Source: Methanosphaera stadtmanae
Lineage (GTDB): Archaea > Methanobacteriota > Methanobacteria > Methanobacteriales > Methanobacteriaceae
Assembly: GCA_015062805.1 (NCBI GenBank)
Contig: SUTQ01000001.1
Location: 158,547 to 222,546 of the forward strand
Length of the DNA: 64,000 nt
Reading direction: 5' to 3'
The translations under genes were made by a program, and so were the position numbers. The notes beneath the pieces are model-generated. The model was not told the DNA's origin. It did no database searches and worked only from the letters and a program-made list of their open reading frames with translations. Shown piece by piece: positions 57,328-61,292 of this stretch. Positions within the stretch are counted from its first letter, which is position 1. Every line of letters begins with the position of its first letter.

Positions 57328-58416
57328 ATTACAAAAATTTTAGTTGTTGGTTCTAACACTAGAGCAGTATCAAAGTCATTAAGTGAATTAGGTTATATAG
57401 TGTATGCTACTAGTTTTTTCGAATTAGAAGATCAAAAAAAGTATGTGGAAAAGTTAATTGTTCCTTCATATTATGATAGTTTTGATTTAAAAATAATAGA
57501 AGATTTAGCATTAAATTATGTAAATGAAGTGGATTTTATTATATTTACTAGTGATGTTGATACAGATAGATTTCCTCGTTCAAAAATAATAGGAAATGCA
57601 AATAATAAAAACATTGTCGATAAGTATAAAATGTATAAAAAATTACATAAAAATTTTTTAATGCCTTTAACTTTTAAATTAGATTCTTCTAAAGAAGCCT
57701 GTGAAATAATTAAAAATTATTCTGAAAAAAAATTTATTGTTAAACCTATTATAGGTACTGGTGGATTAGGGATAAATTTTTTTAATAAAAATCTTAATCT
57801 TGAAAAACCTTTTTTATTACAAGAATTTATTGAAGGGGATAGTGTTAGTAGTTCCTTTTTATCTTATCAAAATCATAACATTGACATGGTTACAACTTCT
57901 GAACAAATAGTAGGATCTAAAATGTTAGGTGCTTCTGAATTTATGTATTGTGGGAATATAACTCCATTAATAAATTCAAATCCTAAATTAATCAATATCT
58001 CAACAAAAATTTCTAAAATGTTCAAGTTATTAGGGTCAAATGGTATTGATTTTATTTTAAAAAAAAATAAGGTTTATGTAATTGAAGTAAATCCTAGAAT
58101 TCAAGGTACTTTTGAATGTGTAGAATCCAGTTTTAATATGAATCTTGCAAAGGCTCATATGGATGTATGTAATGATGTTAAAGTAAATATTCCAAGTTTA
58201 CAGAAATTTACAGTAAAATTGCTCCCTTATTCATTTGATGATGCTAAATACAACATTATTGAAGATACATATATCAAAGATGTTTCATCACAAGATTTAA
58301 CGATAAAAAAAGGTTTTCCAATATCCACAATACTGGTTTCAGATAGGATTCTTGAAAATGCAATGAGTAAAGCAGAAATCATTAGAAAAAAAATATATAA
58401 TTCGAAAATTAATTAA
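57328..58416 (+). CDS. ATP-grasp carboligase-type protein (COG2232-like), apparent ATT start
   Basis: An ATP-grasp enzyme of 362 aa. ATP-grasp pieces are KFIVKPIIGTGGLGINFF, LLQEFIEGDSVSSSFL and VYVIEVNPRIQGTFECVE. It resembles the predicted ATP-dependent carboligases related to biotin carboxylase (COG2232); substrate unknown. The first common start is GTG at 57400, but coding clearly begins earlier: the frame from 57328 reads TKILVVGSNTRAVSKSLSEL, a Rossmann-like N-lobe. No in-frame ATG, GTG or TTG occurs between the stop at 57313 and 57400. ATT at 57328 (or 57325) lies 7 nt after AAGGGTG. Confidence 0.75.
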   Translation: MTKILVVGSNTRAVSKSLSELGYIVYATSFFELEDQKKYVEKLIVPSYYDSFDLKIIEDLALNYVNEVDFIIFTSDVDTDRFPRSKIIGNANNKNIVDKYKMYKKLHKNFLMPLTFKLDSSKEACEIIKNYSEKKFIVKPIIGTGGLGINFFNKNLNLEKPFLLQEFIEGDSVSSSFLSYQNHNIDMVTTSEQIVGSKMLGASEFMYCGNITPLINSNPKLINISTKISKMFKLLGSNGIDFILKKNKVYVIEVNPRIQGTFECVESSFNMNLAKAHMDVCNDVKVNIPSLQKFTVKLLPYSFDDAKYNIIEDTYIKDVSSQDLTIKKGFPISTILVSDRILENAMSKAEIIRKKIYNSKIN

Positions 58417-58568
58417 ATAATTCCAAAAGTTAATAATATATATACGATTACACCGAACGCAATTAAAAAAGTAGACACAATCATTATCCTTGTATATATA
58501 TAAAATAATTTTACTCTTCTTTCTGGATCTTCATCTAAATATTCTTTAATTGGATCTTGATAAGGCAT
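58413..58568 (-). CDS. Small membrane protein, 51 aa
   Basis: A 51-aa ORF: a polar N-terminus with MPYQDPIKEYLDEDPERR, then one long hydrophobic helix to the end (residues ~28-51). A strong AAGGAGAT ribosome site sits 5 nt before the ATG, which makes it a credible gene despite its size. It overlaps the end of the convergent ATP-grasp gene by 4 nt. It lies just downstream of tRNA-Gln on the same strand. No function is known. Confidence 0.72.
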   Translation of the reverse strand: MPYQDPIKEYLDEDPERRVKLFYIYTRIMIVSTFLIAFGVIVYILLTFGII

Positions 58569-58647
58569 AATTAATCTCCTTATTTTTTCATGTAAAATTA
58601 TGTTTAAGTTAATATAAAAAATTTTTCAAAATTAGAATAAAATTAGT

Positions 58648-58718
58648 AGTCCCAAGCGGAGTCGAACCGCTGTCCCCGGTTCCAAAGACCAGGAGGATTG
58701 CCACTACCCTATGGGACT
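58648..58718 (-). tRNA. tRNA-Gln (UUG)
   Basis: A 71-nt cloverleaf. The acceptor stem AGTCCCA/TGGGACT spans 58718-58648. The anticodon stem CTGGT/ACCGG has loop CTTTGGA, anticodon TTG (plus-strand 58683-58685). The T-arm is AGCGG-TTCGACT-CCGCT. There is no intron and no encoded CCA. The first pair is A1-U72, the archaeal tRNA-Gln identity element read by the GatDE amidotransferase route. A TTTATATA-type box on the minus strand lies at 58760-58768, about 43 nt upstream. Confidence 0.95.
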
Positions 58719-59177
58719 AACATATAGTACATAGTACAATATAAGTTATATTCAATGTTATTTATATACTTTTCTATTCTTTAACTATTTTATTTTAGTA
58801 AATCTTTAATTAAATGAGTTTCAATTCCTTTTAATTTTCTTTATTTTTTTTTAAAACATTTATATTTATTTTTATCAATGTTAAATAAATACTCATACAA
58901 CTTTTTTTGATACAAATATTTTTTAAAATCATTTATTAAACTATTTTTTATAAAAATAAATTACTTCTATATAAATGTTTGTACTATATATTTAAATACT
59001 TATAACAATATAAGTTAATGTTAAGAATTGTATAGATTCTTGTTTTCATAGCTTATTAATTTATTGAAAAATTGATTACTATCAAAAATAAGCCAAAAAT
59101 AAGTTTTCTCTCATAAAGAGATAACTATCAAATAACTAAAGTATTAATTTTTTTGGTTTATTATAGGAGGCGGTAAG
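58719..59177. promoter_or_regulatory. tRNA-Gln promoter and long leader of the wall protein gene
   Basis: 459 bp with no gene. Minus-strand TATA box for tRNA-Gln at 58760-58768. For the plus-strand gene, TATATATTTAAATA (58985-58998) is the best box, implying a leader of about 155 nt. This leader contains AAAAATAAG twice (59084-59092, 59095-59103) and ACTATCAAA twice (59078-59086, 59124-59132). It also holds a TCTCT-CATAA-AGAGA hairpin (59107-59121). AGGAGG at 59165-59170 is the ribosome site. Confidence 0.45.
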
Positions 59178-61292
59178 ATTAAGAGAAGTTTGATTTTGGT
59201 TCTCTTAGTTTCAGTATTGCTTAGTATTTCAGCATTGTCTGCTGCAGATACAACTACTGATAGTTCAGCAATAAATGATACTGGATATCAAAATATTGCT
59301 GAAAATTCGCAATCTAAGAGTGTTACCAATATAGAATCAAATTCTATAGAAAATAAAGTAAGCAATGAATATGAAACTATAACAAATGTAAATTCATCAT
59401 CTACTGATAAAACAATAACTAAACAATCAAGTACTAACAATACACAAGTTAAGTCAGAAACTACATCTACTACTCAAAAACCAATAATTATCAATGCAAA
59501 AGGAATTTCAGCACGTTCTGGTGAGACAATTAATATACAAGGAAATGTTACTTTTAAAAATGGTGAAAAATTAAACTCTGCTAAAGTATCAATTAAAGTA
59601 AATGGTAAAACAATTATTCAAACTAGAGTATCTAATGGTAGTTTTTCAGCCAAATATACTATTCCTATTTGGACAGCAAAACAATATCCTATGGAAATTA
59701 TAGTTGGTGAGACTTCTACTTCATTAACTGGTAGGAAAAATGTTACTTTATCAATTACTAGGTATGATTTAGCTGTATCCTTGTCTAAAATTACAACAAC
59801 ATCAGCTTCTAAAGAAAAATTAGTAGCAACAGTTAAATATACTAATGGAACTTTAGCTAATGGTCAAAAAGCAGTTTTCAAATTAAATGGAAAAACGATA
59901 ATATCAACCACAGTTAAAAATGGAGTGGCATCTGGAGAGTTTATTGTTCCAGCTAAAGCAGGAACATATACATTAATATTTAAAGTTGGTGAATCAACTA
60001 CAACAAATTATAACGAAAAAAATACTACTATTGTAGTTTCTAAAAGGACTCCAACTATTGTGAAGGATTCATTAATATTTGCAAAAAAAGGAAGTTATGT
60101 TTATTTAAATGCTAAAATAACTGATACTGGTTATGCAAATGCTAGTGGAAAAGTATCTTTTAAAGTTAATGGAAAAACCATAGGTACAGTTAATGTAATA
60201 AATAATTCTGCAGATTATAAATATCAAGCCAATTTAAAATATGGGCTTCATAATATATCCATTGTTTATGGAGGATCAAGTGGATTAAATGCTGTTAGAA
60301 CAAGTACATTTATGAGAGTTCAAGAAGATTATGTAGCAACATATACTTATGCACAAATTCTTGAAAAGGCTAACTCAACTCAGAATTTTGTTTTAAAGAA
60401 CAAGAGATTACCTAATTATGTAACCATTAATGGTAATCAAGTGTCAATGACTGATTTATTATATATGTTTGCTCAAGCACTTTCCTATAATAATTCATAT
60501 CATAATGGTGGTTTTGAAGAACCTTCAACATATATACAATCTACAAAATATGATTTCCAGTTAGATAAAGATGACTATGTATCAATGGCATATAGATTAA
60601 TTGATTTCTACAAAGATAATGGTAGAGCTCCAAATGTAATGCTCGCAACTACCGGAGTAAACTTAAACTTCAATGATACAGTTTATACTCTAGCAAAAGC
60701 ATTATCATTTACGATGAATAATAAGAGATTACCTAATTATGTGACAGTTTTAAGTATAAGTAGTTCTTCAAGTTCTAGTGGTTCTTCAAGTTCCAGTGGT
60801 TCGGATTCATCAACATATGTTCCAACTAATTCAGTGCCTACCGGATTTGAAAAATACCTTACAAATGCTAAGAATAGTTATGTAAATTCAACAGTTATTA
60901 AAAATGCTGTTCAAAAAGCTATATCTGGTGTATCAGGCACATATAATCAAGCAGTTGCAATATTTAATTATGTTAATAAGGTGACTGATTATAGTGGTTA
61001 TATGAACACTAGACGTGGAGCTATCAAAACTTTACAAGATGGTTTAGGTAATTGTGTTGACCAAAGTCATTTGTTACTCGGTATGTATCGTACTGCAAAT
61101 ATACCTGCAAGATATTGCCATGCAACATGTTACTTCAGAAGTGGTCTGGTAATAGGTCACGTATGGGTTGAATGTTATGTGGGCGGAAAATGGTATTCCT
61201 GTGATACTACCTCAAATCAAAATACATTCAATAATATTGTGAATTGGGGTTCATGTTCAACAATTAACAGATACACCGAATTATATTTCTAA
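59178..61292 (+). CDS. Secreted pseudomurein-binding, transglutaminase-like cysteine protease candidate
   Basis: A 704-aa surface protein. Residues 1-25 form a signal peptide (KRSLILVLLVSVLLSISALS). A Ser/Thr/Asn linker runs to ~100. Three Ig-like repeats lie at ~103-195, 196-288 and 289-384. Pseudomurein-binding repeats span ~384-520 (KNKRLPNYVTINGNQVS; NNKRLPNYVTV). A Ser-rich hinge (~524-545) precedes a C-terminal transglutaminase-like fold with a Cys626 (GNCVDQSH), His661 (GHVWVE), Asp676 (SCDTT) triad. This resembles pseudomurein endoisopeptidases. The start is taken as ATT at 59178, 7 nt after AGGAGG; the TTG at 59190 is too far and drops the basic n-region. Confidence 0.8.
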   Translation: MKRSLILVLLVSVLLSISALSAADTTTDSSAINDTGYQNIAENSQSKSVTNIESNSIENKVSNEYETITNVNSSSTDKTITKQSSTNNTQVKSETTSTTQKPIIINAKGISARSGETINIQGNVTFKNGEKLNSAKVSIKVNGKTIIQTRVSNGSFSAKYTIPIWTAKQYPMEIIVGETSTSLTGRKNVTLSITRYDLAVSLSKITTTSASKEKLVATVKYTNGTLANGQKAVFKLNGKTIISTTVKNGVASGEFIVPAKAGTYTLIFKVGESTTTNYNEKNTTIVVSKRTPTIVKDSLIFAKKGSYVYLNAKITDTGYANASGKVSFKVNGKTIGTVNVINNSADYKYQANLKYGLHNISIVYGGSSGLNAVRTSTFMRVQEDYVATYTYAQILEKANSTQNFVLKNKRLPNYVTINGNQVSMTDLLYMFAQALSYNNSYHNGGFEEPSTYIQSTKYDFQLDKDDYVSMAYRLIDFYKDNGRAPNVMLATTGVNLNFNDTVYTLAKALSFTMNNKRLPNYVTVLSISSSSSSSGSSSSSGSDSSTYVPTNSVPTGFEKYLTNAKNSYVNSTVIKNAVQKAISGVSGTYNQAVAIFNYVNKVTDYSGYMNTRRGAIKTLQDGLGNCVDQSHLLLGMYRTANIPARYCHATCYFRSGLVIGHVWVECYVGGKWYSCDTTSNQNTFNNIVNWGSCSTINRYTELYF

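Follow-up and report, generated by a model that had tools for sequence, protein, structure and literature searches.

A probable genus-wide AUU start codon on a predicted wall-binding protein gene of Methanosphaera, and its place within a small set of near-cognate starts

Among the described systems closest to the present case, the bacterial infC gene, which encodes IF3, starts at AUU behind a Shine-Dalgarno sequence, and the codon is conserved because its weakness matters (as discussed in PMC5472188 and references therein). Likewise, the Streptomyces sigR gene carries a GTC start, a rare codon that limits output and that had been misannotated (PMC5472188), while the ribosome site and an N-terminal alignment led to the proposal that a tubulin gene of an Asgard archaeon starts at ATT (PMC13394414). 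The archaeal wall protein gene presented here resembles infC in that a near-cognate AUU behind a Shine-Dalgarno sequence is conserved. However, the AUU of infC provides autoregulation by IF3 in bacteria, whereas here it precedes a surface protein in an archaeon and is accompanied by further AUU- and AUA-started genes; the wall gene does not encode a start-fidelity factor, and the archaeal counterpart of such a factor, aIF1, starts at ATG in the genus. The sigR case differs in its codon, its bacterial origin and its restriction to a single regulatory gene, and the Asgard tubulin is a single gene without the reported genus-wide conservation or codon swapping of the locus studied here. In the literature searched, which took in few subscription papers, no report of genus-wide AUU or AUA starts in archaea was found. 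Judged from comparative sequence analysis, the AUU start of the wall gene is real and conserved and belongs to a small near-cognate set in this lineage.

The window, i.e. the whole stretch of DNA analysed, comprises 64,000 nucleotides of a Methanosphaera stadtmanae assembly. The initial annotation had placed the start of a wall protein gene at an ATT, and its sequence elements were borne out: AGGAGG lies at 59165–59170 on the plus strand and is followed by a 7-nt spacer, CGGTAAG (59171–59177), and by ATT at 59178–59180. From this codon the frame reads ATT AAG AGA AGT TTG ATT TTG and stays open up to the stop ending at 61292, giving a coding sequence of 704 amino acids (59178–61292). As the initial annotation had also held, translation from ATT yields a predicted signal peptide with a basic n-region, (M)KRSLILVLLVSVLLSISALSAA (59178–59246, cleavage point judged by eye). 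No in-frame ATG, GTG or TTG is found in this open reading frame upstream of the ATT.

Besides the signal peptide, Pfam matches to PMBR (1.7e-23), Transglut_core (8.3e-19) and Big_3_5 (4.8e-8, just below the cut-off) mark pseudomurein-binding repeats, a transglutaminase-like domain and an Ig-like domain, respectively, in the predicted product. The PMBR match (PF09373) reaches 82 bits against a curated cut-off of 24.9 and covers three stretches. The nearest solved sequence is 3ISR, a putative transglutaminase-like protease (E 6.5e-9), and the closest named relative occurs in Methanosphaera sp. Tb.RUG.228. By its repeats and transglutaminase-like core the protein is akin to the pseudomurein-binding, transglutaminase-like surface proteins of Methanobacteriales and presumably also resembles the pseudomurein endoisopeptidases PeiW and PeiP, although the match obtained was to the general Transglut_core alone. 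This domain content points to a secreted, wall-binding protein and possibly to a wall-modifying enzyme.

Orthologs were sought in all 20 Methanosphaera genomes, many of which are metagenome assemblies, and GGAGG followed by seven nucleotides and ATT was present in the wall ortholog of every one of them. Eighteen of the 20 genomes have a single copy each of the extended motif GGAGGNGNTAAGATTAA, and the reversed control yielded none; the two remaining genomes (G007 and G014) have variant spacers, CGTTACG and TCATAAA respectively, before the same ATT, while the spacer elsewhere is CGGTAAG, CGATAAG or AGATAAG. Outside the genus a single match was obtained among 119 other genomes of the family (L201), and it can be ascribed to chance since the frame that follows is just 14 codons long. 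In the cultured M. stadtmanae, whose ortholog carries GGAGGCGGTAAGATTAAG, an AUU-started N-terminus would read (M)KK. No swap of the first codon to any other was seen in the 20 orthologs, while isoleucine codons across these genes are distributed over ATA (505), ATT (405) and ATC (106). Of seven other conserved isoleucine columns, none is entirely ATT; most mix the three codons and one is nearly all ATA. The same arrangement recurs in a paralogous surface family (L048–L052), in which TAA-GGAGGTTTTATA-ATT-AAG was found in all five genomes.

The fixed codon of the wall gene can be set against several other genes in which the start codon changes between genomes. The neighbouring ATP-grasp gene (57328–58416, plus strand; Pfam ATP-grasp_3, 1.8e-34) begins ATT ACA AAA ATT TTA GTT GTT GGT, and its candidate ATT start at 57328, likewise suspected in the initial annotation, gained support from the comparison: the start column holds ATT in 18 of 20 genus orthologs and TTG in one, in a further ortholog (L160), which a small insertion has shifted, ATA is the probable start, and the aligned codon is ATG in all 13 relatives examined from sister genus g10. 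A 60-residue class III signal-peptide protein starts directly 3' of GGAGGTG in nearly all genomes, with ATA in six, ATG in five, ATT in four and TTG and GTG in one each. For a 200-residue protein the start is ATT in seven rows (in one of which, L177, the next codon is TTG), ATG in six, ATA in two and GTG in one, with ACG in G013. The ATT of a glycosyltransferase (L065), with the stop of its frame only four codons upstream, aligns with ATG in G011. In these four families, ATP-grasp included, near-cognate codons thus stand at the homologous position of canonical starts. Similarly, a ThiM-like (hydroxyethylthiazole-kinase-like) protein has ATT in G017 and ATG in G011; for AroD (L068, Pfam DHquinase_I) only ATA, or ATT two codons earlier, is on offer in G000 and G011, two genomes that also share ATT for L069, a secreted protein of 877 residues. 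In this assembly the 60-residue protein (L003, G000:C11:53170-53349) was observed to lack an in-frame ATG, GTG or TTG near its start.

Altogether, 6 of 199 genes with orthologs (~3%; ~460 kb of genome sampled) appear to be AUU- or AUA-initiated, a rate drawn from a sample of ~464 kb with some hand curation and not from a census; the ATP-grasp gene, L065 and L067 were retrieved by an automatic rule, and the wall gene, L069 and L068 by hand. AUU and AUA may accordingly be regarded as alternative starts for a minor group of genes (some 2–3% in the sample) that includes both surface proteins and core enzymes. The initial annotation had raised the possibility that the lineage uses AUU starts routinely; several genes do appear to be started in this way, but they form a small minority of about 2–3% of those sampled, and AUA is used as well. 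The genome-wide motif count that had been proposed as a check showed no excess (21 occurrences of AGGAGG-N7-ATT against 17 of the reversed pattern), and such a count would miss these starts because raw numbers do not rise above the reversed control. In the sampled stretches, the codons that follow ribosome sites likewise showed weak enrichment, strong sites being too few and ATT lying near expectation in G000.

Near-cognate starts do not seem to be exclusive to Methanosphaera, since an amino-acid kinase in the sister-genus genomes G056 (L273, 13894–14556, minus strand) and G061 (L293) has a probable ATC start while its homolog in the window has ATG, and a low rate of such starts probably holds in that genus too. 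The two genomes form a control pair whose sequences are mostly ~95% identical, and alignments extend past the starts, so that many of the listed cases are uninformative. In the TFB gene of the same pair (L264 and L284), AGGAGG-N8-ACG was noticed, followed by some 21 codons among which none is canonical; since translation could instead begin at a later ATG, an ACG start there is ambiguous.

Translation of the wall gene from AUU at 59178 is very probable when these observations are weighed against other ways in which the protein could begin. The choice expected from annotation tools is TTG at 59190–59192, which would leave ATT-AAG-AGA-AGT untranslated; TTG is an accepted start in archaea, this one is the first canonical codon of the frame, and 15 of the 20 orthologs, that of the window included, have the same codon at position 5. 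Yet its best ribosome-site match is 2 nt and AGGAGG lies 19 nt away, the signal peptide would lose its basic n-region, as already remarked in the initial annotation, and the invariance of ATT would be left unexplained. Moreover, the TTG is absent from position 5 in G004, G012, G001, G013 and G014: it stands at codon 7 in G004, G001 and G013, and in G012 and G014, which have no in-frame canonical codon upstream, the first one downstream comes at codon 57 and codon 157 respectively, past the signal peptide. Initiation at TTG in place of ATT is therefore given little credence, although in the 14 other orthologs that have it at codon 5 it might be used as a secondary start. An even fainter chance attaches to the reading in which ATT is an internal codon reached from another upstream codon, by frameshifting or through a joined leader. 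The near-invariant spacer, perhaps more constrained than initiation alone requires, would suit it, but the wall ortholog L034 and the paralogs L048–L052 have an in-frame stop directly before GGAGG, so that only the spacer codons and ATT remain; the spacing of GGAGG suits ATT in every species, and the ATG, GTG and TTG swaps in other families fall on exactly the corresponding codon. Single-base differences at starts can also be assembly errors, and a sequencing error or recently damaged ATG was considered, but the comparison of 20 genomes refutes it to the point of near impossibility: the same ATT is found in all of them, including the complete single-contig G017 and G008 as well as an assembly from a separate deposition (L022), and the frames are intact at 438–980 amino acids (G002 runs to the contig end). 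The conservation in all 20 orthologs, the two orthologs devoid of a usable canonical codon and the exchange of ATT or ATA with ATG, GTG or TTG in other genes jointly support the start at ATT.

A further explanation, rather unlikely but less so than the preceding ones, is that a dedicated initiator tRNA or an altered initiation factor makes AUU a regular start. Archaeal aIF1 proofreads start codons (PMC6237735) and discriminates against non-canonical ones in archaea according to experiments cited in PMC8211752, and all 13 genus members in which it was seen have an aIF1 that lacks a basic C-terminal tail and ends in DTIEIK (e.g. L243, L249, L250 and G000:C1:11155), in contrast to almost every one of the 17 further members of the family listed, which have the tail (DTIEIRDSDKKFNRKRR), a short one in the case of G133. 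The difference is nevertheless a genus-level correlation of single origin, one change in one lineage, and for that reason serves as a lead only; the sister genus, which possesses the tail, also has the probable AUC start. As for the tRNA, the initiator is standard, with an A1-U72 pair, a GGG/CCC anticodon stem of three G-C pairs and the anticodon CAU, and the tRNA list, which is incomplete, showed only this initiator and a standard tRNA-Ile(GAU), with no unusual or second initiator. A near-cognate start of aIF1 itself was considered and rejected, since the gene has an ATG after GGGAGA and its seeming N-terminal extension is an open frame upstream.

With a standard initiator tRNA and no second one seen, mismatched reading of the third base of AUU is the simplest mechanism for the preferred start at 59178. 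From the computed features, namely start position, conservation, codon swapping and initiator tRNA, we infer that the strong Shine-Dalgarno sequence with its 7-nt spacer would place AUU in the ribosomal P site, where the ordinary methionine initiator (CAU) would read it; the pairing would hold the codon in the P site so that the mismatch is tolerated, and the protein would begin Met-Lys-Arg, with methionine at position 1. Over evolution AUU and AUA exchange with AUG, GUG and UUG, as the other genes show. Set against that swapping, the constancy of ATT, ribosome site and spacer in the wall gene suggests that its weak start is selected for, perhaps because it limits a wall-active protein. A weak codon behind a strong ribosome site would then set the output of the wall-binding enzyme or make it adjustable. 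A wider and more tentative proposition, towards which we lean less than away, is that start-codon selection is relaxed in Methanosphaera and, at a lower rate, in the family, so that in a few percent of genes AUU and AUA (AUC in the sister genus) can stand in for AUG and the reverse, perhaps in connection with the shortened aIF1, and that the fixed AUU of the wall gene together with its leader forms a translational control element.

In practice, gene finders accept ATG, GTG and TTG starts only. A whole archaeal genus, with members from the human and the rumen gut, appears to retain an AUU start on a surface protein and to swap AUU and AUA with AUG elsewhere; signal peptides and N-termini would consequently be misannotated. 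Short secreted proteins devoid of ATG, GTG and TTG may escape annotation altogether, and standard gene finders are likely to overlook or shorten the 60-residue class III signal-peptide protein. Methanosphaera could thereby offer a natural comparative system for archaeal initiation, particularly for how aIF1 sets start-codon stringency.

The region upstream of the wall gene holds a TATA-like box at 58991–58998 and, about 23 nt after it, a plus-strand hairpin of the form TAAGAAT-loop-ATTCTTG (59022–59042), both recurring in most species of the genus; at that distance the hairpin probably lies close to the 5' end of the mRNA. An Rfam search of the leader gave no match, and no common fold around the start codon emerged from RNAalifold on the 20 leaders, the pairing probability of the AUU ranging from 0.11 to 1.00 among species. 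In an alignment of 14 species, the hairpin itself has 98.9% of its pair cells formed, with weak covariation in the form of one two-sided compensatory change (G019), which makes an RNA structure at this position plausible. Further upstream, an apparent small membrane-protein reading frame of ~50 amino acids (MPYQDPIKEYLDEDPERRVKLFYIYTRIMIV..., read by eye) was noticed on the minus strand at 58420–58570, with the ATP-grasp gene on one side and a tRNA-Gln gene (58647–58718, minus strand) on the other.
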